The position numbers and the translations under genes are program-made. DNA of 64,000 nt from the NCBI GenBank assembly GCA_016841445.1, contig JAENZD010000003.1:157212-221211 (forward strand), read 5' to 3'. Below, piece by piece: positions 14,977 through 24,391 of the stretch; the first letter of the stretch is position 1, and each line of letters opens with the position of its first letter. The notes beneath the pieces are model-generated. The model searched no databases. It saw only the letters and a program-made list of their open reading frames with translations, and had not been told where the DNA came from. The stretch is from Anaerolineaceae bacterium. GTDB lineage: Bacteria > Chloroflexota > Anaerolineae > Anaerolineales > Anaerolineaceae.

Positions 14977-15081
14977 GAGCCAATGTTGAGTATCTCTTCG
15001 TAAATTCCAATGAGCTAACAGATTAATAATTTGTGAAAGCAGGAGAATAATTTAATATTAATTTTTAAAGGAGGTAGAAAG

Positions 15082-16074
15082 ATGGACTGGTCGAGATTCC
15101 CAAAAGTTGAATTACATCTTCATCTCGATTGCTCACTTAGTTATGAAGTCGTCTCGCATTTTGACCCGTCAATTACCCCTGAACAGTTCCGGTTGAATTT
15201 CATTTGCCCAGATAAATCAAATCTGGAGGACTACCTGAAACGTGCACCCAATTTTTTCCCTTTTATGCAGACAGAAGAACAACTGAGTATGGTGACCCTG
15301 GATCTGTTTAATCAAATCAAAAAAGATAACATGCTCTATGCTGAGATAAGGTTTGCACCGTTGCTTCACACTCGCAAAGACCTTTCACCCGAACAGGTGG
15401 TTTCATGTGTAGAAAAAGCAACTGCTCAGGCTGTACATCGCACTGGTGTTGAGGCGCGTATTATTCTCTGTACATTGCGCTACTTTTCAACCGCGCAAAG
15501 CCTTGAAACGGTCCATTTGGTGGAAGATTTCCGTGGCACCTATGTAGCAGGTTTTGATATAGCAGCAGATAGACCCGGGAATGTCTTTGATGACCATATC
15601 CCAGCATTTCGATATGCGCGTGACCGGGATATTCCATACACAGCTCACTCTGGAGAAACTCGTGGACCGGACAATGTATGGGATACTGTGAAGCAATTCG
15701 CTCCATCGCGCATGGGACATGGTGTACCATGTTTAGAATATCCTGAACTGGTTGACTACATTCTGGAAAATAAGATCCATCTGGAGTTATGCCCGACTTC
15801 GAATATACAAACGAATACCTTTGATACCTACGAGGATCACCAAATTGACAAGCTGTACCGGTTGGGGTTATCGGTGGGTGTAAATACCGATTCACGTACT
15901 ATTTCAAATGTCACTTTAAATGAGGAGTATGAAAAAATGCACAGGACTTTCGGATGGGAACCTGAGGATTTTTTCAATTGTAATAAGAATGCTCTGGAAG
16001 CGGCATTCATCTCAAATGAAGTGCGAGATGATCTGATGGAACGATTAGTTGAAGGATATCAAAAGACTCTTTGA
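15082..16074 (+). CDS. add: Adenosine deaminase family protein
   Basis: 330 residues. It hydrolyses adenosine to inosine and ammonia. Zinc ligands sit in VELHLHLDCSL (HxH), in YTAHSGETRGPDNVWD (His plus the proton-donating Glu), and in GLSVGVNTDSRT (VNTDSR in place of the usual VNTDDP). 'MGHGVPCLEYPELVDYILE' and HLELCPTSNIQT are also classic. A strong AAAGGAGG ribosome site lies 7 bases before ATG 15082. It has its own promoter and structured leader and no operon partners; it fits the nucleoside salvage genes found later in the window. The Asp-Ser change in the VNTD motif leaves the first Asp intact, so activity is expected. Confidence 0.9.
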   Translation: MDWSRFPKVELHLHLDCSLSYEVVSHFDPSITPEQFRLNFICPDKSNLEDYLKRAPNFFPFMQTEEQLSMVTLDLFNQIKKDNMLYAEIRFAPLLHTRKDLSPEQVVSCVEKATAQAVHRTGVEARIILCTLRYFSTAQSLETVHLVEDFRGTYVAGFDIAADRPGNVFDDHIPAFRYARDRDIPYTAHSGETRGPDNVWDTVKQFAPSRMGHGVPCLEYPELVDYILENKIHLELCPTSNIQTNTFDTYEDHQIDKLYRLGLSVGVNTDSRTISNVTLNEEYEKMHRTFGWEPEDFFNCNKNALEAAFISNEVRDDLMERLVEGYQKTL

Positions 16075-16318
16075 ACAGAAAAACTTAACCAAGTGGCAAA
16101 TCGCACATTTTTGACTTAATAATCCATGGTTGTGAGAAATGAATTTATACAGACTGTGGAGATTTAGTCCCTCATCAAAGCGCCCTTTTACTAACGGATT
16201 CTCAAGCCCTAGGGAAAGGAACGCTTAATCGGAGAATGACCGATTTCCTAACTCACCACTCACTATACCCACTTACAATTAAACCAAAAAGCGTCTTCGC
16301 GCAGCCTCCTGTTTGCAA

Positions 16319-16401
16319 TAGGGCAGGTGGGAGTCGAACCCACACGGTACTAATACCGAAGGATTTTAAGTCCTTTTCGTCTGCCATTCCGCCACTGCCC
16401 C
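16319..16401 (-). tRNA. tRNA-Leu (UAA), left island copy, D-stem mismatch
   Basis: 83 nt, reading GGGGCAG at the 5' end; anticodon loop CTTAAAA (UAA), a long variable arm CGGTA-TTAG-TACCG, a T arm GTGGG-TTCGACT-CCCAC, and discriminator A. No CCA is encoded. It equals the copy at 22011-22093 except at 16377, where C25 of the D stem is A, breaking the G10-C25 pair. Upstream (16402-16450 on the minus strand) no good promoter was found. It is probably the duplicated, decaying copy. Confidence 0.85.
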
Positions 16402-16595
16402 AAATTGAACTATATTTAGGGGTAAACTTTCCGAATAACCTTATATATACGGGTGTTCCGGCAAGAATTAAGTTTGAATTTTAAAAGTCCTATGTATGTG
16501 GAGCTATGAGATAAATCATAGGTCCACAATGAGTATTTGATTTAGAAAATATAACATAAAATGCTACTGCCTTAATTGATTTGAGTTAATGTACG

Positions 16596-16732
16596 AAAAA
16601 ACGCTTTCTACCTTTGAATAGAGAGCGTTCATGTGATGCTATAATCTTTTTAGCTGAACCGCTGCTCTATTCAGTGGTTTGGTCAGGGCTGGTAGGTGTT
16701 TGCTCACTTATCAGCCCGTTACCTATATTATA
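16596..16732 (-). ncRNA. Candidate small RNA with promoter and intrinsic terminator
   Basis: On the minus strand a TATAAT box (16727-16732; the -35 is weak) is followed by three stems. Hairpin 1 is GGGCTG/CAGCCC (16712-16717 with 16686-16691). Hairpin 2 has an 8-bp stem (16672-16679 with 16657-16664, one G-U) and a 7-base loop. Hairpin 3 is a 10-bp terminator stem (16620-16629 with 16600-16609, one G-U) running into six T. The loop of hairpin 2 (complement of 16665-16672) can pair over 8 bases with 16616-16623, which overlaps the terminator's 5' arm. It has no protein-coding frame and matches no RNA family known to me. Confidence 0.45.
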
Positions 16733-16760
16733 CACTATTTTCCGTCTCAGTTGATATTAG

Positions 16761-16800
16761 CTTTACACTTCCTCACAATGTGTATTGAGGGAGTGTAAAG
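16761..16800. repeat. 40-bp inverted repeat, island copy 1
   Basis: Arms CTTTACACTTCCTCA and TGAGGGAGTGTAAAG (15 bp, one mismatch) flank a 10-base centre; GTTTA follows. A nearly identical copy lies at 19716-19755. Neither is followed by a T run. Confidence 0.7.
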
Positions 16801-16817
16801 GTTTAATATATAAAAAT

Positions 16818-17166
16818 TGACCTGACCCCATAAGTTGTACCAATCTTTATGATAGTCTAACCGGCTGTATTTGGGTAGGTTAAATTAAAATAGCTGCACG
16901 CACTGGTGGGTAATAACTCAATGAACTATGTGGGCGAACCGTGTTGTAATGCTGCCGCCACATTTCAATCAATACTTGAGCTTCCCTCAAAGAGTAGAAA
17001 ATTTCTCCATTCAACAACTCATCCCGTATCTTGCCATTGAATGATTCAATATAACCATTCTCCTATGGACTACCAGGCTCAACGTACAGTGGCCGAACCT
17101 ATAATTTCTCCAGCCAATCCCTGACACGCTTGGCAATGAATTCAGGATCATTATCCGAGTGGATTC
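16818..17166 (-). pseudogene. Remnant of an IS3-family transposase (3' part)
   Basis: Starting with the inverted-repeat end TGACCTGACCCC at 16818, the minus strand encodes the C-terminal third of a transposase matching that of the full IS at 20007-21240: IHSDNDPEFIAKRVRDW, then VRPLYVEPGSP, ENGYIESFNGK and YNTVRPHSSL. Two in-frame stops interrupt it and homology ends near 17166 just before the second catalytic Asp motif. Many base differences from the intact copy show it is an older insertion, not a recent duplicate. Confidence 0.75.
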
Positions 17167-17338
17167 AGGCTCAACTCGAATTGGGATATAGTTTTTTCTA
17201 CAGGTAGAATACCCTTCCAACAGGGCATGTCCATATAATAATTTGAGATAAATTTGATTACGAAAGACAATAATTTTCTTTATTGTTATAGGAGTTATAA
17301 TTTGCTAAGCACGGGTTCGATTCTGATGAGATGTTCCC

Positions 17339-18184
17339 TTACCTTGTCAGAGTCGGGGTGGGGGTCAATGGACTGGGTCGGCTAGGTGACGGCGTGGGGG
17401 TCAGCGTGCTGGATGACCTGGGGGTCGGCGTGCTGGTTGACCTGGGGGTCAGCGTGCTGGATAGCCTGGGGGTTTGGGTGTTGGAAGACGTTGGGGTCGG
17501 CGTACTGGATAGTCTGGGGGTCTGGGTGTTGGAAGGTATGGGGGTGGAAGTTTCTGTTGCGGTCATGAGTACCGGGATGGTTGCAGGCTCCACGCTTGCC
17601 CTGCCCTGGCTGGCGTCGACCCAGCAGCCCAGGCTGGAGTTGAGCAGGATGTTGTACCAGGTACTGTCTAAACTGCGTCCGTTCAATGAATAAGGCTGGT
17701 CTTCGGTGGCAACCCCCAGGACGGTGGTGGTCAGACTTGGTAGGGCGTAGCAGCTTAAATTAATCGCCGGGATGAAGATTGGTTGCCAGGCTGTGGGTGT
17801 CTTGGAGGGTGTGGAGGTTAGAGAGGGGGTTCCAGTTTGCGTCTGGGTGGAAGGTGCTGACTGGGTGGGGGAGACAGTCTCTGCCCGGGAGGTGGTGACG
17901 GTCAGTATCGAGGTCAGCGTGAAGGTTGGTGTCGGGGCTCCGCCTGGCGCAGGGGTGGGAGCTGCAGGCAGGGTGGGCAAACCGTACCGAGAGAGTTCCT
18001 GGTTCAATGTACGCGCAACCTGGGAAGGAAACAGGGAAGCAAGAACTTCCCGCAACCCGATGGATAAGCGGTTGTCTGGGACTGTGCCGAGGAGGTTGCT
18101 GGCGATCAGGGAGGGTGTCAGGATGAGAATGAACAGCAGCTGTGCAAGGCTGTGAGGTCTCTTCCCACTAGGGTCGTTCGGCAT
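17339..18184 (-). CDS. Membrane-anchored Ser/Thr/Pro-rich protein with SH3-like segment
   Basis: 281 residues. An N-terminal hydrophobic segment 'LLFILILTPSLIASNLLG' is either an anchor or an uncleaved signal. Two Thr/Pro/Ser linkers follow (about 75-135 and 205-281). Between them is a folded stretch with 'YNILLNSSLGCWVDASQG', which resembles a bacterial SH3-like domain with a Cys pair. The C-terminal linker is encoded by 24-bp tandem repeats. It begins 3 bases after the mscS stop, so the two are co-transcribed. A role in envelope stress or wall attachment is only a guess from the operon partner. Confidence 0.6.
   Translation of the reverse strand: MPNDPSGKRPHSLAQLLFILILTPSLIASNLLGTVPDNRLSIGLREVLASLFPSQVARTLNQELSRYGLPTLPAAPTPAPGGAPTPTFTLTSILTVTTSRAETVSPTQSAPSTQTQTGTPSLTSTPSKTPTAWQPIFIPAINLSCYALPSLTTTVLGVATEDQPYSLNGRSLDSTWYNILLNSSLGCWVDASQGRASVEPATIPVLMTATETSTPIPSNTQTPRLSSTPTPTSSNTQTPRLSSTLTPRSTSTPTPRSSSTLTPTPSPSRPSPLTPTPTLTR
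17401..17544. repeat. Six 24-bp tandem repeats inside the Thr/Pro-rich gene
   Basis: Units run 17401-17424, 17425-17448, 17449-17472, 17473-17496, 17497-17520 and 17521-17544, each starting T(C/T)(A/G/T)G and ending in GGGG. Types alternate, giving a 16-residue super-repeat in the protein (TPRLSSTP-type octads). Such arrays can gain or lose units without shifting the frame. Confidence 0.8.
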
Positions 18185-18187
18185 GAC

Positions 18188-18970
18188 CTAATCCGGGGGG
18201 TCAAGATTGATGTGGTTCATCTTGAGCGCCTGGACGGCGGTCATGAGCAACCGGGACTTCTCAGCTTCCAGGTCATCCATGTTCCTTTCTCCCGCCACGT
18301 AGGCATAGACGTTCATCTTCACCATCCCCTCCCAGAGCATGGTGGAGCACAGTCCGGGACTGGTCTTTTCGTTCGCAGATTCGGGGGAAAAGTCCTTGAT
18401 CCCTTCCAGGATGGCGGCAGTGGCTTTATCCACGTCCTGGTTAGCCGGGATCGCGATTTCCACTTCCACGCGGCGCACCGGGAAGGCGGAATAATTCACG
18501 ATCTTGCCAGCGGCGATCTCGGAGTTGCGGATGATAACCCGGTTGCCTGAACAGTCCAGCAGGGCGGTGTAGGTCAGGGTGATGGCGCCCACTTCGCCAA
18601 GGGTGCCGTTGGCTACTGATACGATGTCGCCGACCTTGAAGGGTCTGATGGTGAACAACTTGAGCCCCGAAACGATATCCGATGCGAAATTTTCTGAGCC
18701 AAGTGCCAGAGCGCCGGTCAGAGCCGTTCCGAGGACCACCACCACGCCGACCACATTCGTCTCATCCAGGATCACCTTGCCCGTGTAGAGCACGATCAGC
18801 AGGGCAAGCAGGTTGCCAATATACCGCCCCCAAGACTTCTTTGCCAGGCGGGTGAAAAGGAAGGAGATGATCCCCGCCGCCAGCAGGCCGATTATGCCGA
18901 TCAGGACTGCATTCAGTAAATCGTGCCAGAAAGGGGGAAGGGAATTGAGGAAAGTTAGAAATGATAGCAT
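18188..18970 (-). CDS. Small-conductance mechanosensitive channel, MscS family
   Basis: 260 residues. Three membrane segments (about 15-40, 50-67, 72-95) are followed by the conserved pore and beta domain: 'GALALGSENFASDIVSGLKL', FTIRPFKVGDIVSVANGTLGEV, then 'TALLDCSGNRVIIRNSEI'. This family opens under membrane tension to release solutes after a fall in osmolarity. AGGAG lies 9 bases before ATG 18970. It is the first gene of a two-gene operon inside the tRNA-Leu island. It could be cargo or a host gene trapped by rearrangement. Confidence 0.88.
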   Translation of the reverse strand: MLSFLTFLNSLPPFWHDLLNAVLIGIIGLLAAGIISFLFTRLAKKSWGRYIGNLLALLIVLYTGKVILDETNVVGVVVVLGTALTGALALGSENFASDIVSGLKLFTIRPFKVGDIVSVANGTLGEVGAITLTYTALLDCSGNRVIIRNSEIAAGKIVNYSAFPVRRVEVEIAIPANQDVDKATAAILEGIKDFSPESANEKTSPGLCSTMLWEGMVKMNVYAYVAGERNMDDLEAEKSRLLMTAVQALKMNHINLDPPD

Positions 18971-19340
18971 GGTACACGACTCCTGTGAGAAAAAAGGCTA
19001 AACAAATAAATTACCGTTCATTAAACCTCCATGATTTTATTGAGCAATATTCAGGTGCATTTCCTTCCAGATCCACTTCCTGGTTTGAATCTCATCGTCC
19101 TCTAGGGAGATCCCCTCTAAATAGCCTCGCGAACCATATATTCCGGTTCTTACGCGACCTTCAAAAGGAATCCCCAGCTTTGCACCCGGTTCATTATTGA
19201 TTGGTTTTGGCACTGGCTTCGCCTTTGTGTCTTCCCATCCGGGGATGAGGCATCATGGAAGATTTCAATTATCAAGTGGATTATAATTGCATGGCATGAA
19301 TCAGTCAATAAAAAAATGCATAATAGTAGGCATCATTTAG

Positions 19341-19456
19341 CCCTACCGGTCTCTTTCCCCTTCGCTGTGCTGCGGGGACCTTCGGTGAGACACTCTACCA
19401 AATGCTCAATTCGCGTTTGGGGACACATCTACTCGAAGCGAAGCTGAGAGGTAGGG
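19341..19456. repeat. Branched palindromic element in the island
   Basis: Outer stem CCCTACC (19341-19347) / GGTAGGG (19450-19456). Inside, GTCTC/GAGAC closes an arm that contains TCCCC/GGGGA, and a second arm has CCAAA/TTTGG. The architecture is like that of the elements at 8723, 55404 and 62934. Confidence 0.45.
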
Positions 19457-19482
19457 AAGGGTAAGGATATAATCCAACTAAT

Positions 19483-19680
19483 ATGCTAGCAAAGCGTTCA
19501 ACGCCGAAATTAATGCACTCCAGTATTAGTATTACTGACGGGATTTATGGAATACTTTCGATTGATGATAAAAAATAACATCTATCAGATATTAATCTTG
19601 AGTCATCAACAATAAACAACGATACAAACCATAGGTTAGATGCGATTATAAAAATTCTCAAAGAGAGACCATCGAAATAA
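19483..19680 (+). pseudogene. C-terminal fragment of a second tyrosine recombinase
   Basis: The frame from 19483 reads STPKLMHSSISITDGIYGIL followed by SIDDKK, a stop at 19576-19578, then continues in the same frame for 33 codons to a TAA at 19678-19680. The HSSISIT-x-x-IYG pattern resembles the LGHSSI-x-x-T-x-x-Y tail of XerC-like recombinases, where Tyr is the nucleophile. The N-terminal part is missing and the branched element abuts its left end. Confidence 0.4.
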
Positions 19681-19715
19681 ATTTGAAAGCCAAGTTTCTC
19701 TATAATTGAAACAAT

Positions 19716-19755
19716 CTTTACACTTCCTCACAGTTAGTATTGAGGAAGTGTAAAG
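19716..19755. repeat. 40-bp inverted repeat, island copy 2
   Basis: Perfect 15-bp arms CTTTACACTTCCTCA / TGAGGAAGTGTAAAG around a 10-base centre, followed by GTTTA as in copy 1 at 16761-16800. The two copies, in the same orientation, lie 3 kb apart. Confidence 0.7.
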
Positions 19756-20071
19756 GTTTATTGGAATAGAGATAATATAGAAGTATTACGGTTAATTCTT
19801 CTTGCATTGTATAGTTAGCAGGTCAACATTTTTTCAAATGTATCTCGAAAACATTTTACAAGGGAAATTAATTAATATATAATATTTATACAGTAACCCA
19901 TACAAGCAATGAAATAGTCATTACAGTTTAGCTCATATATTTTAGAAGGGAGTGAACCATGTTAGCCCCTATCTGGAGGAGAAGGACCGCCAGGGTTGTC
20001 TCTATCCTGACCTGACCCCCAAAAACTGATCCAGATACTGTGATAGTATTTGGAGAAATTGGAGGTTAGAA

Positions 20072-20350
20072 ATGGCAAGAAGACGAATTTATACCCCAGA
20101 ACAAATCATCAACAAACTGCGAGAGGCTGAAATCTACATAGGTCAAGGCAAGACGGTGAAAGAAGCCAGCAAGCTCCTGGAGATCAGCGAGCAGACCTAC
20201 CATCGCTGGCGAAGGGAATATGGGGGCATGGATATTACACAAGCCAAGAAACTCAGAGAGATAGAAAAAGAAAATATCCGCTTGAAAAAACTGGTTGCGG
20301 ACTTATCCTTAGATAACGCTATCTTGAAAGAGGTGCTGGGAAAAAAGTAA
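20072..20350 (+). CDS. IS3-family transposase OrfA
   Basis: 92 residues. The opening 'MARRRIYTPEQIINKLREAE' and SEQTYHRWRREYGGM form the helix-turn-helix that binds the IS ends; a leucine-zipper-like tail (EKENIRLKKLVADLSLDNAIL) mediates dimerisation. TTGGAGG lies 6 bases before the ATG. The gene ends in GGAAAAAAGTAA, where A6G at 20341-20347 allows a -1 shift into orfB, so both OrfA and an OrfAB fusion should be made. Confidence 0.88.
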   Translation: MARRRIYTPEQIINKLREAEIYIGQGKTVKEASKLLEISEQTYHRWRREYGGMDITQAKKLREIEKENIRLKKLVADLSLDNAILKEVLGKK

Positions 20351-21210
20351 TTGCGCCTGACAGCAAGCGGCAAGCTGTCAGGCAAGCAGTAGAAGTCTCG
20401 GATGTCTCCGAACGTAGGGCGTGCCAGGTGATCGGTCAGCCACGGTCAACCCAACGCTATGATAAGCAGGTCCCTGAGGATGAGGCACTGCTCAGACTAA
20501 GGATAATAGAGCTGGCCAGCCAGTATGGTCGCTATGGCTATCGGCGGGTCACAGTCCTGCTGCGGAATGAAGGTTGGATCGTCAACCATAAGCGCGTACA
20601 GCGTATCTGGCGGGAAAAAGGACTAAAAGTGCCCCAAAAACAGCCAAAACGTGGCAGATTATGGCTCAATGATGGTTCGTTGGTGAGATTGAGGCCGTTG
20701 TTCCCCAAGCACGTCTGGAGTTATGACTTCATGGAAGACCGTACTCATAATGGGGTCAAGTTCCGCATTCTAAATGTGATCGACGAATACACTCGGGAAT
20801 GTCTGGCTATCAAGGTAAATAGAGGACTTAAATCACATGATGTCGTTGAGGTGCTTACAGACCTGTTCATCCAACGAGGCATTCCTGTCCACATTCGATC
20901 AGACAATGGCCCTGAATTCATTGCCAAGCGGGTCAGGGACTGGTTAGAAAGGCTTCAGGTTCGGCCACTGTACATTGAGCCTGGTAGTCCATGGGAGAAT
21001 GGTTATATTGAATCATTCAATGGCAAGATGCGGGACGAATTGTTGAATGGAGAGATTTTCTATTCTTTGAAGGAAGCTCAAGTATTGATCGAGATGTGGC
21101 GGCAACATTACAACACGGTTCGACCACATAGTTCCCTGGGTTATTATCCGCCAGTGCCTGCTGCTATCTTGGTTCAGCCTTCTCAATTTCAACCGGTTGG
21201 ACTATCATAA
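20347..21210 (+). CDS. IS3-family transposase OrfB (catalytic part, made by -1 frameshift)
   Basis: From the slippery site at 20341-20347 the -1 frame is open to 21210 (287 codons; the first in-frame GTG is 20428). It contains an HTH_21-like segment (YGRYGYRRVTVLLRNEGW, RVQRIWREKGLKVP) and the rve integrase core. The DDE acids are seen in WSYDFMEDRT, IRSDNGPEF and ENGYIESFNGKMRDE. The frame is intact, so the element may still be active. The fused product reads from GKK of OrfA into VIAPDSKRQAVRQ. Confidence 0.85.
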   Translation, partial: VIAPDSKRQAVRQAVEVSDVSERRACQVIGQPRSTQRYDKQVPEDEALLRLRIIELASQYGRYGYRRVTVLLRNEGWIVNHKRVQRIWREKGLKVPQKQPKRGRLWLNDGSLVRLRPLFPKHVWSYDFMEDRTHNGVKFRILNVIDEYTRECLAIKVNRGLKSHDVVEVLTDLFIQRGIPVHIRSDNGPEFIAKRVRDWLERLQVRPLYIEPGSPWENGYIESFNGKMRDELLNGEIFYSLKEAQVLIEMWRQHYNTVRPHSSLGYYPPVPAAILVQPSQFQPVGLS

Positions 21211-21240
21211 AGGTTGGTACAACTTATGGGGTCAGGTCAG

Positions 21241-21926
21241 AAGCGGGGATGTGTAACCCAAAGTGCTTGATTTTTGTCTCTTCGCTGATTGAGATATTTT
21301 CTAAGTGCTCTCTTAGAGTGCTTACAAATATATACATAACGAGGTCTTTTACCTTTGCTATGGCGAATCAGGATATCCCCGCTTGCCTGATTGACATCCT
21401 CAATATTGATAGACAGTAATTCACTCGCTCTTACACCAGTGTCTAATAGAAATAGAAGAATGGCTTTATCCCTGAATCCACAAAATGTATTGGGTTCACA
21501 GACCTTAATCATCTGTGAGACCGTCTCAAATTCCACTGGCTCTAAAGGGTCAACAGGTACGCGGGGAGCTTTCACTTTTTGAATGGGGTTAGACTAATTT
21601 TCAGGCTCAACCTCATTTTCATACCAGAGTAAAAAAGCACGAATTGCTCTATAGGAAGCATGGATTCCCCCAGGATTATGATTGGTCTCTTGCAGATAGA
21701 GCATATATTGGCGAATTAGATTCGGTTTGATTTGGCAGACATTTCTTATGACTTGAGAATTACAGTACTCCAGAAAGAATTTTAGTTTTTGGCGATAAAA
21801 TCCCAATGTTCCTTTTGCACAACCACGGGCTTTACGTTCAATTAGAAAGGCTTCTATCCATGAAAATACATTGTCGTCTATTGAGGAATTTTGAAGAGTC
21901 CTCTGGGTATGGGGTTTTAAAAACAT
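21241..21926 (-). pseudogene. Tyrosine integrase, broken by a nonsense codon and an IS
   Basis: From ATG 21926 (MFLKPHTQRTLQ) the frame encodes a SAM-like DNA-binding domain (ERKARGCAKGTLGFYRQKLKFF) up to a TAG at 21594-21596. It continues in the same frame (SNPIQKVKAPRVPVDPLEP) through the start of the catalytic domain with DTGVRASELLSI, whose Arg is the first catalytic residue, and HSKGKRPRYVYI. It stops at the IS end (21240), losing the HxxR and Tyr parts. The TAG is one base from TGG, a plausible original Trp. It lies 50 bases from the right tRNA-Leu repeat, as expected for an island integrase. Confidence 0.85.
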
Positions 21927-21929
21927 AAA

Positions 21930-21950
21930 GCACACTCCTTTCAAGTGTGC
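21930..21950 (-). promoter_or_regulatory. Hairpin enclosing the integrase ribosome site
   Basis: GCACACT/AGTGTGC arms (7 bp; 21944-21950 and 21930-21936) surround the AAAGGAG ribosome-binding stretch in the mRNA of the integrase, so the hairpin could limit translation. It lies 3 bases before the ATG. Confidence 0.45.
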
Positions 21951-22010
21951 CGAAATACCCAATATATGGTGTTTTTACCCTTATAGCACCACATAATTAG
22001 TGTTTTGCAA

Positions 22011-22093
22011 TAGGGCAGGTGGGAGTCGAACCCACACGGTACTAATACCGAAGGATTTTAAGTCCTTTGCGTCTGCCATTCCGCCACTGCCCC
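22011..22093 (-). tRNA. tRNA-Leu (UAA), right copy, probably the functional one
   Basis: 83 nt with intact D stem (G10-C25; the base at 22069 encodes C25), anticodon UAA, long variable arm and discriminator A. CCA is not encoded. The acceptor stem closes with a G1-U72 pair. A promoter lies on the host side of the repeat, so this is likely the original gene with its own promoter, restored after integration. Confidence 0.93.
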
Positions 22094-22106
22094 AAATTGC
22101 TTCATA

Positions 22107-22134
22107 ATTTTACCATCGATTACACGCTTGTGAA
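22107..22134 (-). promoter_or_regulatory. Candidate promoter of the right tRNA-Leu gene
   Basis: On the minus strand TTCACA (22129-22134), a 16-base spacer, and TAAAAT (22107-22112) lie 13 bases before the tRNA 5' end. No comparable boxes are seen before the left copy. Confidence 0.5.
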
Positions 22135-22243
22135 GAGATAAATTTCCAGGGATAAGAATCCTTAGATGGTCTTGTTCTGCCAACTTTTGGTTTTATGTGA
22201 TTGTCGTTTATAATTTATTCTTGCAGAACACAGGAGACTCTAA

Positions 22244-24391
22244 ATGGATGATTCGCTGAACCTACCACCCTATAAGAATATTGACCTTCCAGCAGAAATA
22301 CGGGTGGAAGACCTGATTTCTAGGATGACGCTGGCAGAGAAGATCTCTCATCTGGTCGCGGATTCGGCTGCGGTGGAACGTCTGGGAATCCCTGCTTACA
22401 ACTGGTGGAATGAAGCACTGCATGGTGTTGCCCGAGCGGGGAAGGCCACCGTTTTTCCCCAGGCAATCGGGATTGCGGCAACATGGAATGAAGACCTGGT
22501 TTTCCGCATGGCGAATGCTATTTCTGATGAAGCAAGAGCAAAGTACCATCAAGTGCTTCGGAAGGGTGACATCAAACGCTACCAGGGCTTGACCTTCTGG
22601 TCACCCAATGTCAATATTTTTAGAGATCCGCGTTGGGGGCGCGGCCAGGAGACCTATGGTGAAGACCCATACCTGACTGCCCGAATGGGGGTTCAGTTCG
22701 TGCGTGGCATGCAGGGTGACCATCCCCAGTTTTTAAAAACGGCAGCCTGTGCCAAACATTTCGCCGTTCACAGTGGTCCTGAAGGTGAGCGGCATCGTTT
22801 TAATGCAGATGTAAGCCTACGAGATTTATGGCTGACTTACCTGCCGGCTTTTGAGTCGCTGGTCAAGGAGGCAAAAGTAGCCGGTGTGATGGGGGCCTAT
22901 AACCGCATCAATGGTGAGGCATGCTGCGCCAATAAGATGCTTTTGCAGGATATCCTCAGGAAGAAGTGGGGCTTTGAGGGGTACGTTGTTTCGGATTACG
23001 GTGCAATTCGTGATATATCTGAAGGTCACAAGCTGGCTGATTCAATGGGTGAGGCTGCTGCCATGTCACTTCATGCTGGCTGCCAGCTGGATTCTGCCGA
23101 TACCTATGAATTCTTATTGGCGGCTGTTGGGAAAGGGCTGCTCACAGAGAATGATATTGATGGCGCCTTGACATCATTATTTGCGATCCGCTTCAACTTG
23201 GGCATGTTTGATCCTGATAACCGGGTACCTTTTACGAATATTCCGCCCGAAGCGATTGATTCCCCGGCAAACCAGGCCCTGTCCTTAGAGGTCGCACGGC
23301 AGTCCATCGTGCTGCTCAAGAATGAAAACGACCTGCTGCCCCTGGATAAAAACCTGGGAACCATAGCTGTTATAGGCCCCAATGCAAATGATAAATTGGT
23401 TTTGCTGGGGAACTACTTTGGCAGACCTACTGAAACGGTCACTGTACTGGAAGGGATCCGCAACCTGGTTTCGCCTACAACAGAAGTTTTGACGGCAGAA
23501 GGCTGCGATATTCTGGATCCGGGACAGGCGGGTTTCGTTGAAGCTGTCAGATTTGCAGAAAAAGCAGATGTGGTCGTGATGGTAATGGGACTTTCTCAGC
23601 GGGTGGAAGGTGAAGAAGGGCAAACAGAGGGCACCCCGGAAGGTTTCATAAGTCCTGGAGACCGTGATAGTCTGGATTTGCCCGGTGAGCAGGAAGCACT
23701 GCTCGAAGCGGTAGCTGAGACAGGCAAGCCGATCGTGCTTGTGCTACTTAACGGGAGTTCTCTATCCATCAACTGGGCTGATCAGCATGTGCCAGCGATA
23801 CTTGAAGCCTGGTACCCGGGTCAGGTTGGGGGTAGGGCAGTTGCCGAAGTTTTGTTTGGTGATTACAACCCGGGTGGAAGGCTCCCGGTGACGTTTTATC
23901 AGTCCGTTGAGCAGCTTCCGCCTTATGAAGATTATGCGATGGCAGGGCGAACCTACCGCTATTTTGAAGGCGACGTCTTATACCCATTTGGCTTTGGCCT
24001 CAGCTATACGACCTTCAAATATCACAACCTGGCACACAGCCATGACCGTATGTCCGGCCCAGAAATGGTGCGTGTTTCCTGTGCAGTTGAGAATACAGGC
24101 AGCAGGACTGGTGATGAGGTTGTGCAGGTTTATGTAAGGGATGAGCAATCCGGTTTTCCACATCCGAGGCACAGCCTGGTGGGTTTCAAACGAGTTCGCC
24201 TGGCACCCGGTGCATTTGAGAATTTGATGTTTGAGATTCATCCTCGCCAGTTTGCGGTTGTAAATGATGAAGGAGAATGGGTCATTGAACCAGGCTCTTT
24301 TACAATCTCGATTGGCGGCGGTCAGCCCGGCACTGAGGGCTGCTTATCGGCAACCATTGAAATGGTGGGTGAACCCGCCCTGGTGGTATGA
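22244..24391 (+). CDS. Glycoside hydrolase family 3 (beta-glucosidase/xylosidase-like)
   Basis: 715 residues in the usual GH3 order: TIM barrel (about 20-320, with FWSPNVNIFRDPRWGRGQETYGEDP and AACAKHFAVHSGPEGERH), an alpha/beta sandwich (about 350-570), and a C-terminal fibronectin-III-like domain (about 610-705). The nucleophile is D251 in GYVVSDYGAI. The acid/base in the second domain is less clear; the loop VEGEEGQTEGTPEGF supplies candidate Glu residues. The ending EALHGVARAG near the N-terminus is typical of xylosidase-type members. There is no signal peptide, so it acts in the cytoplasm. An AGGAGA site precedes the ATG. A lactate-permease-family gene follows after 48 bases. Confidence 0.9.
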   Translation: MDDSLNLPPYKNIDLPAEIRVEDLISRMTLAEKISHLVADSAAVERLGIPAYNWWNEALHGVARAGKATVFPQAIGIAATWNEDLVFRMANAISDEARAKYHQVLRKGDIKRYQGLTFWSPNVNIFRDPRWGRGQETYGEDPYLTARMGVQFVRGMQGDHPQFLKTAACAKHFAVHSGPEGERHRFNADVSLRDLWLTYLPAFESLVKEAKVAGVMGAYNRINGEACCANKMLLQDILRKKWGFEGYVVSDYGAIRDISEGHKLADSMGEAAAMSLHAGCQLDSADTYEFLLAAVGKGLLTENDIDGALTSLFAIRFNLGMFDPDNRVPFTNIPPEAIDSPANQALSLEVARQSIVLLKNENDLLPLDKNLGTIAVIGPNANDKLVLLGNYFGRPTETVTVLEGIRNLVSPTTEVLTAEGCDILDPGQAGFVEAVRFAEKADVVVMVMGLSQRVEGEEGQTEGTPEGFISPGDRDSLDLPGEQEALLEAVAETGKPIVLVLLNGSSLSINWADQHVPAILEAWYPGQVGGRAVAEVLFGDYNPGGRLPVTFYQSVEQLPPYEDYAMAGRTYRYFEGDVLYPFGFGLSYTTFKYHNLAHSHDRMSGPEMVRVSCAVENTGSRTGDEVVQVYVRDEQSGFPHPRHSLVGFKRVRLAPGAFENLMFEIHPRQFAVVNDEGEWVIEPGSFTISIGGGQPGTEGCLSATIEMVGEPALVV

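Follow-up and report, generated by a model that had tools for sequence, protein, structure and literature searches.

A probable decayed integrative island between two whole tRNA-Leu(UAA) genes in an Anaerolineaceae genome, and the mixed tRNA attachment blocks of its integrase family

The stretch analysed here, hereafter the window, comprises 64,000 nucleotides of the genome of an Anaerolineaceae bacterium (G000:C2:157212-221211). ARAGORN detects two tRNA genes in this 64-kb window, both tRNA-Leu(taa) on the minus strand (16318-16402 and 22010-22094), each contained in one copy of a 96-nt direct repeat (16312-16407 and 22004-22099). The repeat copies start 5692 bp apart and differ by one mismatch (99% identity); the 5.6 kb lying between them include a broken tyrosine integrase gene. 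An earlier examination of the letters alone (the sequence-only reading) had described a decayed integrative island that duplicated an entire tRNA-Leu gene. Its 96-bp direct repeats with complete tRNA-Leu(UAA) genes were recovered by ARAGORN and by a repeat search, and the tyrosine integrase that it placed beside the right repeat was recognized through PF00589 (5e-13) and the SAM-like N-domain PF13102 (3.9e-5), each above its own cut-off. A gene repeated over 96 bp is not explained by chance. Throughout the genome (3.35 Mb, 8 contigs) these two are the only close copies of tRNA-Leu(UAA), the next match reaching 74% over about 71 bp. The features on which the argument turns, including the two attachment (att) repeats, are listed below.

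15082-16074, plus strand: adenosine deaminase gene, a flanking host gene; the same neighbour is found in G011
16270-16311, minus strand: ancestral 3' flank of the tRNA, in which a terminator-like hairpin and a T run lie, retained behind the left copy only
16312-16407, minus strand: left att repeat, a whole tRNA-Leu(UAA) extended by 5 nt on the 5' side and 6 nt on the 3' side; the 5' flank is that of the element and the 3' flank that of the host
21240-21926, minus strand: tyrosine integrase pseudogene beside the right repeat, its start set by comparison with relatives
22004-22099, minus strand: right att repeat, a whole tRNA-Leu(UAA) whose 5' flank is the ancestral one (promoter side) and whose 3' flank is that of the element
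22244-24391, plus strand: glycoside hydrolase family 3 (GH3) gene, a flanking host gene that adjoins tRNA-Leu also in G003, G005, G010, G011 and G012

Sixteen genomes of the genus, the window's own included, were compared. A blastn search with the tRNA-Leu region found a match in 11 of the 16 and none in the other five (G001, G004, G006, G008 and G013). Within the stretches fetched from the ten other matching genomes, ARAGORN found one tRNA-Leu(taa) in nine (G002, G003, G005, G007, G009, G010, G011, G012 and G015) and two, 2.2 kb apart, in G014. The congener G011 carries a GH3 gene, one tRNA-Leu and an adenosine deaminase gene in the order of the window and without the insert, and this is the kind of site, a single tRNA-Leu with no insert, for which the sequence-only reading had proposed to look. 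The opposite arrangement, two intact tandem tRNA-Leu genes without an insert, which that reading had named as counting against it, was sought as well and was seen in none of the ten in the fetched stretches. In G010 the tRNA-Leu sits where the contig ends, and another contig terminates in a second occurrence of its 3' part. Two further traces were noted among the congeners. In G015 the intact tRNA-Leu is followed after about 240 bp by a degenerate tRNA-Leu-like stretch (L050:9353-9434). In G011 a second occurrence of the final 19 nt of tRNA-Leu lies past the adenosine deaminase gene (L048:12062-12080) and may be left from an older insertion through which this gene reached the site.

The two outer and two inner flanks of the repeats were assigned by local alignment of 120-nt flanks, each compared with 200 single-base shuffles. 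The 5' flank of the right copy resembles the 5' flanks of the congeners, with z of 10.9 (G003), 8.3 (G010), 5.8 (G002), 5.2 (G011), 5.0 (G015), 4.5 (copy a of G014), 3.8 (G005), 3.1 (G007, over 31 nt), 2.7 (G009) and 2.4 (G012). The 3' flank of the left copy resembles their 3' flanks, with z of 8.9 (G003), 7.0 (copy b of G014), 6.2 (G015) and 3.4 (G011). The inner flanks match element ends, the 3' flank of the right copy those of G010 (z 29.7) and G014 (copy a, z 4.5), and the 5' flank of the left copy the distal element end in G014 (copy b, z 14.2). Each copy has therefore retained one of the ancestral flanks, the right copy the 5' flank and the left copy the 3' flank, which argues for insertion into one tRNA gene and not for tandem duplication. 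Duplication of tRNA-Leu in tandem by the host, followed by the arrival of insertion sequence (IS) elements and cargo between the copies, would account for two whole genes, since tRNA genes do duplicate, and the degenerate stretch of G015 could be counted in its favour. It is made highly improbable by the inner flanks, which match the element ends of G010 and of G014, and the outer ones, which match host sequence; by an integrase of a tRNA-targeting family abutting the right copy; and by three other whole-tRNA pairs that bracket relatives of this integrase.

The flank matches to element ends also indicate that relatives of the same element occupy the same tRNA in G010 and G014. G010 encodes an integrase 75% identical to that of the window, beside the same tRNA-Leu, and G014 is represented here by a 5.1-kb contig with no integrase match and with an element end homologous to that of the window. 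The stretch behind the G010 integrase (L055:9532-15977) encodes McrB and McrC. The last residues of the G010 integrase diverge where an IS3-type transposase gene follows, and IS3 damage to the integrase may have happened twice independently, in the window and in G010.

Intact relatives of the integrase are present in other genomes as well as in the window's own, and a relative in G269 adjoins a tRNA-Leu(UAA). Relatives were found in 61 of the 147 genomes of the family (E<=1e-20) and in 61 of the 400 genomes of the order (E<=1e-45); one scan of viral contigs returned none, and a scan of genome contigs returned three loci, one of them G010's own. Stretches were fetched around part of the family- and order-level hits. 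Counted after dropping the repeat views (G354b and the first integrase of G373b) and leaving out G042, whose match was too short, 65 distinct integrase places were available, and the approximately 400 bp upstream contain a whole tRNA in 38 and a partial tRNA in 15 (two of them weak), or 53 of 65 places. An element was regarded as mapped when both copies of its tRNA-derived repeat were found, those whose second copy was missing from the fetched stretch or whose contig ended being left out. Twenty elements were mapped in this way; G014, with an insert lacking an integrase match, stands outside this set, and a 14-bp match in G040 was not counted.

The 7-nt anticodon loop lies inside the repeated block in all 20 mapped elements. 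The block covers the 5' half of the tRNA in 12 elements, the 3' half in four and the whole gene in four, the window included. Upstream, the 5'-half blocks reach 1 to 83 nt beyond the called tRNA; they end 0-5 nt past the loop in 11 cases and 16 nt past it in one, and the four 3'-half blocks start 0-6 nt before the loop; altogether, 15 of the 16 half-type blocks end within 6 nt of it. Such limits, with 5'-half blocks ending and 3'-half blocks starting at the anticodon loop or close to it, are expected if recombination takes place across a 7-bp overlap there. The whole-tRNA blocks are those of the window (Leu(UAA), 96 bp), G177 (Lys(UUU), 86 bp), G128 (Lys(UUU), 72 bp) and G077 (Gln(CUG), 75 bp), the last three pairs each spanning an integrase of the family. 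Restoration of the whole tRNA, which the sequence-only reading had called less usual, is on this count of four in 20 unusual, not unique. The flank split of the window recurs in the whole-tRNA element of G177, where the host-side 5' flank reaches z of at least 3.4 at 10 of 12 congener sites and the host-side 3' flank z of at least 3.6 at four of 12.

A second element of the family resides in the window's own genome, outside the window. It measures about 21 kb, occupies tRNA-Gln(UUG) (G000:C2, about 89.7-110.9 kb) and encodes an intact-looking integrase of 331 aa, an ArdC-like protein and a type I restriction-modification system. Its block comprises the 5' half of the tRNA and 37 nt upstream of it without mismatch, slightly more with mismatches. 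Six 5'-half elements (L186, L187, L192, L195, L197 and L203) encode, close to their far att copy, another tyrosine recombinase that is only distantly related (25-31% identity). In G373:C26 (L173:37-2178), two family integrases pointing apart flank a single 3'-half tRNA-Leu(UAA)-like fragment.

Taken together, these observations make it probable that the locus derives from an integrative element, since decayed, which recombined into a single tRNA-Leu(UAA) at the anticodon loop, its own attachment site (attP) having carried a complete copy of the target tRNA. Following this scheme, a tyrosine integrase would recombine the element into one tRNA-Leu(UAA) within the 7-nt anticodon loop, and an attP with a full tRNA copy would leave a whole tRNA gene at each junction. 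The right gene would have kept the host promoter side and received its 3' half from the element; in the left gene the 5' half would be element-derived, followed by the 3' half and the terminator of the host. The integrase would afterwards have been wrecked by a stop codon and by the insertion of an IS3 element. The crossover most likely lay in the anticodon loop, and attP may carry either tRNA half or both. We infer the exact crossover bases, and likewise that the full tRNA stood in attP before integration and was not completed later.

A number of observations weigh against this interpretation. The integrase of the window is dead, and this copy is at most a presumed catalyst of the event. The sister element in the same genome uses a different tRNA and has a 5'-half block, and 12 of the 65 integrase places have no recognizable tRNA upstream. 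Some flanks also resemble the copy to which they should not correspond: the G011 5' flank matches the left copy with z 2.7 and its 3' flank the right copy with z 2.9, and the 5' flank of G014 copy a matches the left copy with z 2.1. The 3' flanks of G002, G005, G007, G009 and G012 fit neither copy convincingly (z <=1.5), and in G177 eight of the 12 congener 3' flanks are without support. Finally, the similarity to the homologous element end in G014 sets in only at about tRNA position 19, the 5' half there having diverged, and the complete 5' half seen in the window could consequently be a later repair by gene conversion.

That last point leads to an alternative in which the element integrated through an ordinary 3' half and gene conversion between the junctions then rebuilt the full 5' half of the left copy. 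Besides the diverged 5' half in G014, the repeat of the window outruns the tRNA by 5 nt on the 5' side and 6 nt on the 3' side, an overshoot that a conversion tract could leave, and a 3'-half member using tRNA-Leu(UAA) exists on contig C18 of G177 (60 bp). However, the 5' half in G014 does align, partly and weakly, to the tRNA 5' half (a score reached by 22 of 1000 shuffles), which would fit a decayed complete copy; the blocks of G128 and G077 stop at the tRNA ends with no spill into the flanks; and among relatives for which both att copies are mapped, the one nearest to the window integrase, encoded in the same genome, is of the 5'-half type. Repair by conversion is for these reasons considered rather unlikely, and entry through a whole-tRNA attP is retained as the preferred explanation. 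Supported by the G011 site and by the flank split, the decayed island with a duplicated whole tRNA-Leu proposed by the sequence-only reading holds.

The two tRNA-Leu copies do not appear equivalent. The right one, with the ancestral promoter side, is likely the functional copy. The single mismatch of the repeat lies in the left copy, before the anticodon loop, and opens a D-stem pair; its position in the half expected to come from the element, together with the opened pair, fits a copy under weaker constraint, and the left copy would be little used or silent. Rfam gives 51.3 bits to one tRNA copy (in the second repeat) versus 58.6 to the other. The duplication had been thought dateable, a suggestion that had to be dropped: one mismatch in 96 bp of tRNA gene cannot date the event, and attP and the chromosomal site (attB) would have been alike at integration, which counts against dating too.

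The remaining contents of the island are as follows.

16430-16461, both strands: candidate integrase arm site at the element end next to the left repeat, pattern TATATA..GG..TTCGG, weak alone
16751-16805, no strand assigned: hairpin repeat, copy 1, with a 15-bp stem
16818-17158, minus strand: end remnant of a second IS3 copy, inverted, 341 bp, 87% identical
17339-18184, minus strand: Ser/Thr/Pro-rich open reading frame (ORF), cargo, with an array of 24-bp repeats found in the sequence
18188-18970, minus strand: MscS-type mechanosensitive channel gene, cargo (PF00924, 5.2e-11)
19706-19760, no strand assigned: hairpin repeat, copy 2, 85% identical to copy 1
20008-21239, plus strand: complete IS3-family element with two ORFs (HTH_Tnp_1 and rve) and matching ends TGACCTGACCCC; it cuts off the integrase
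21950-21969, no strand assigned: candidate arm site for the integrase, CCGAAATACCCAATATATGG, in the interval from the right repeat to the integrase gene

The integrase frame contains one in-frame stop, and the C-terminal catalytic part is missing beyond the end of the IS at 20008-21239. The second recombinase fragment listed by the sequence-only reading is most plausibly the other portion of this same integrase. A separate second recombinase was sought by tblastn of 16408-21240 with the integrase C-termini of seven relatives and with six distal-end recombinases, and nothing convincing emerged, the lowest E among the matches listed (0.007) falling inside an IS3 ORF; a Pfam search of 19262-20012 found nothing. 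Two IS3-family copies had been announced, and one of them is indeed complete, the other being reduced to the 341-bp inverted end remnant. The mscS gene was confirmed, other mscS matches in the genus reaching just 26-29% identity. The neighbouring Ser/Thr/Pro-rich ORF has no match in Pfam, NCBIfam or PHROGs.

An Rfam scan of 15000-23500 at E<=0.5 returned no family besides the two tRNAs and lends nothing to the small RNA suggested previously, which may correspond to the 55-bp hairpin repeat. This repeat folds strongly (z -5.2), and its genome matches at E<=0.01 are two, both inside the island. Its copies bracket the mscS region and may mark a nested cargo; no role was found for it. No phage structural or packaging genes were recognized in the window ORFs searched, a part of the total, and no relaxase or transfer genes turned up in the selected ORFs scanned, no search dedicated to them having been made. 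The family relative on contig C18 of G177 shows terminase-small-subunit and tape-measure-like matches.

The arm-site pattern occurs twice in the window against 0.25 expected, and four of 100 shuffles also reach two, which makes the window-only test weak. The family-wide test is stronger: ATATANGG is present in 25 of 64 family upstream regions, whereas 200 shuffles give a mean of 1.3 and a maximum of 6, this count being inflated by related sequences and the 130-nt regions possibly containing tRNA bases.

According to PMC8371274, three tRNA sub-sites are distinguished after Williams 2002, and classical tyrosine recombinases recombine across a 7-bp overlap in the anticodon loop. Islander seeks a tRNA and a fragment, counting 3760 islands with 3' and 159 with 5' fragments among 3919, and rejects hits inside full-length tRNA genes (PMC4383910). 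The element of the window resembles Islander islands in its tyrosine integrase, anticodon-loop crossover region, same-orientation repeats and restored target gene. It has the integrase, although broken, between repeats of the same orientation with an intact tRNA, and a relative offers the insert-free site. Islander islands are expected to show one whole tRNA and one fragment, whereas here there are two whole copies: the second repeat is a whole tRNA gene and not the displaced tRNA fragment of the Islander rule. The element fails the operational definition of Islander, yet it works like a tRNA-targeting island. The proportion of 5' fragments also differs, 159 of 3919 versus 5'-half blocks in 12 of 20 here, in samples not drawn alike.

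Actinomycete elements with tyrosine recombinases are described as lying mostly at tRNA 3' ends (PMC3218068). SLP1 of Streptomyces coelicolor has a 112-bp direct repeat at its tRNA-Tyr target and regenerates the tRNA (PMC3009677). It is a 17-kb conjugative actinomycete element and is compared with that of the window by repeat geometry. The 112-bp repeat reportedly spans the whole tRNA-Tyr gene, and SLP1 is a partial precedent. The pTN3-like integrases are described as using the 5' half of the tRNA (PMC8371274) and share their geometry with the 5'-half members of the present family, including the tRNA-Gln element of the window's genome, where the repeat also covers upstream sequence; they differ in being archaeal and in using the 5' half, whereas the family of the window integrase has 5'-half, 3'-half and whole-tRNA members. 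Whole copies of a tRNA gene (trnI-CAU) on Bradyrhizobium islands have been ascribed to lateral transfer, but the att repeats listed there are portions of tRNA genes, 14-53 bp long (PMC3927601). Searches of the open PubMed Central literature for tRNA-gene islands of Anaerolineae or Chloroflexi and for whole- or half-tRNA attachment brought up no paper that refers to this family in its title or first lines, and none of the papers looked into describes it.

The island itself is an ordinary dead island. Its attachment site, which takes in a whole tRNA, is unusual, and so is the coexistence of 5'-half, 3'-half and whole-gene blocks within one integrase family. It is conceivable, if somewhat doubtful, that the crossover is symmetric enough to capture either half of the target, that a whole-tRNA attP forms a bridge between the half types (the 3' half being restored behind the host promoter, the 5' half behind one that the element supplies), and that elements of this kind carry entire tRNA genes from genome to genome, unnoticed by surveys because these reject full-length tRNA hits. 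On a 'quick' tree with many open forks and with side and block labels assigned by hand, block type changes six times among 20 elements versus a shuffled mean of 7.4 (minimum 5), and the side of the integrase six times among 46 versus 14.9 (minimum 10). The side therefore follows the tree; block type is not shown to do so, and the bridge is so far without tree support among the 20 elements.

The usual picture, in which a 3' fragment lies at the far end while the host promoter is kept, is no fixed property of an integrase family. Whole-tRNA islands escape the published Islander rule, and some 'duplicated tRNA genes' of genomes may therefore be unrecognized island junctions. If it is true that elements carry whole tRNA genes, they would also offer a route for the transfer and turnover of tRNA genes.

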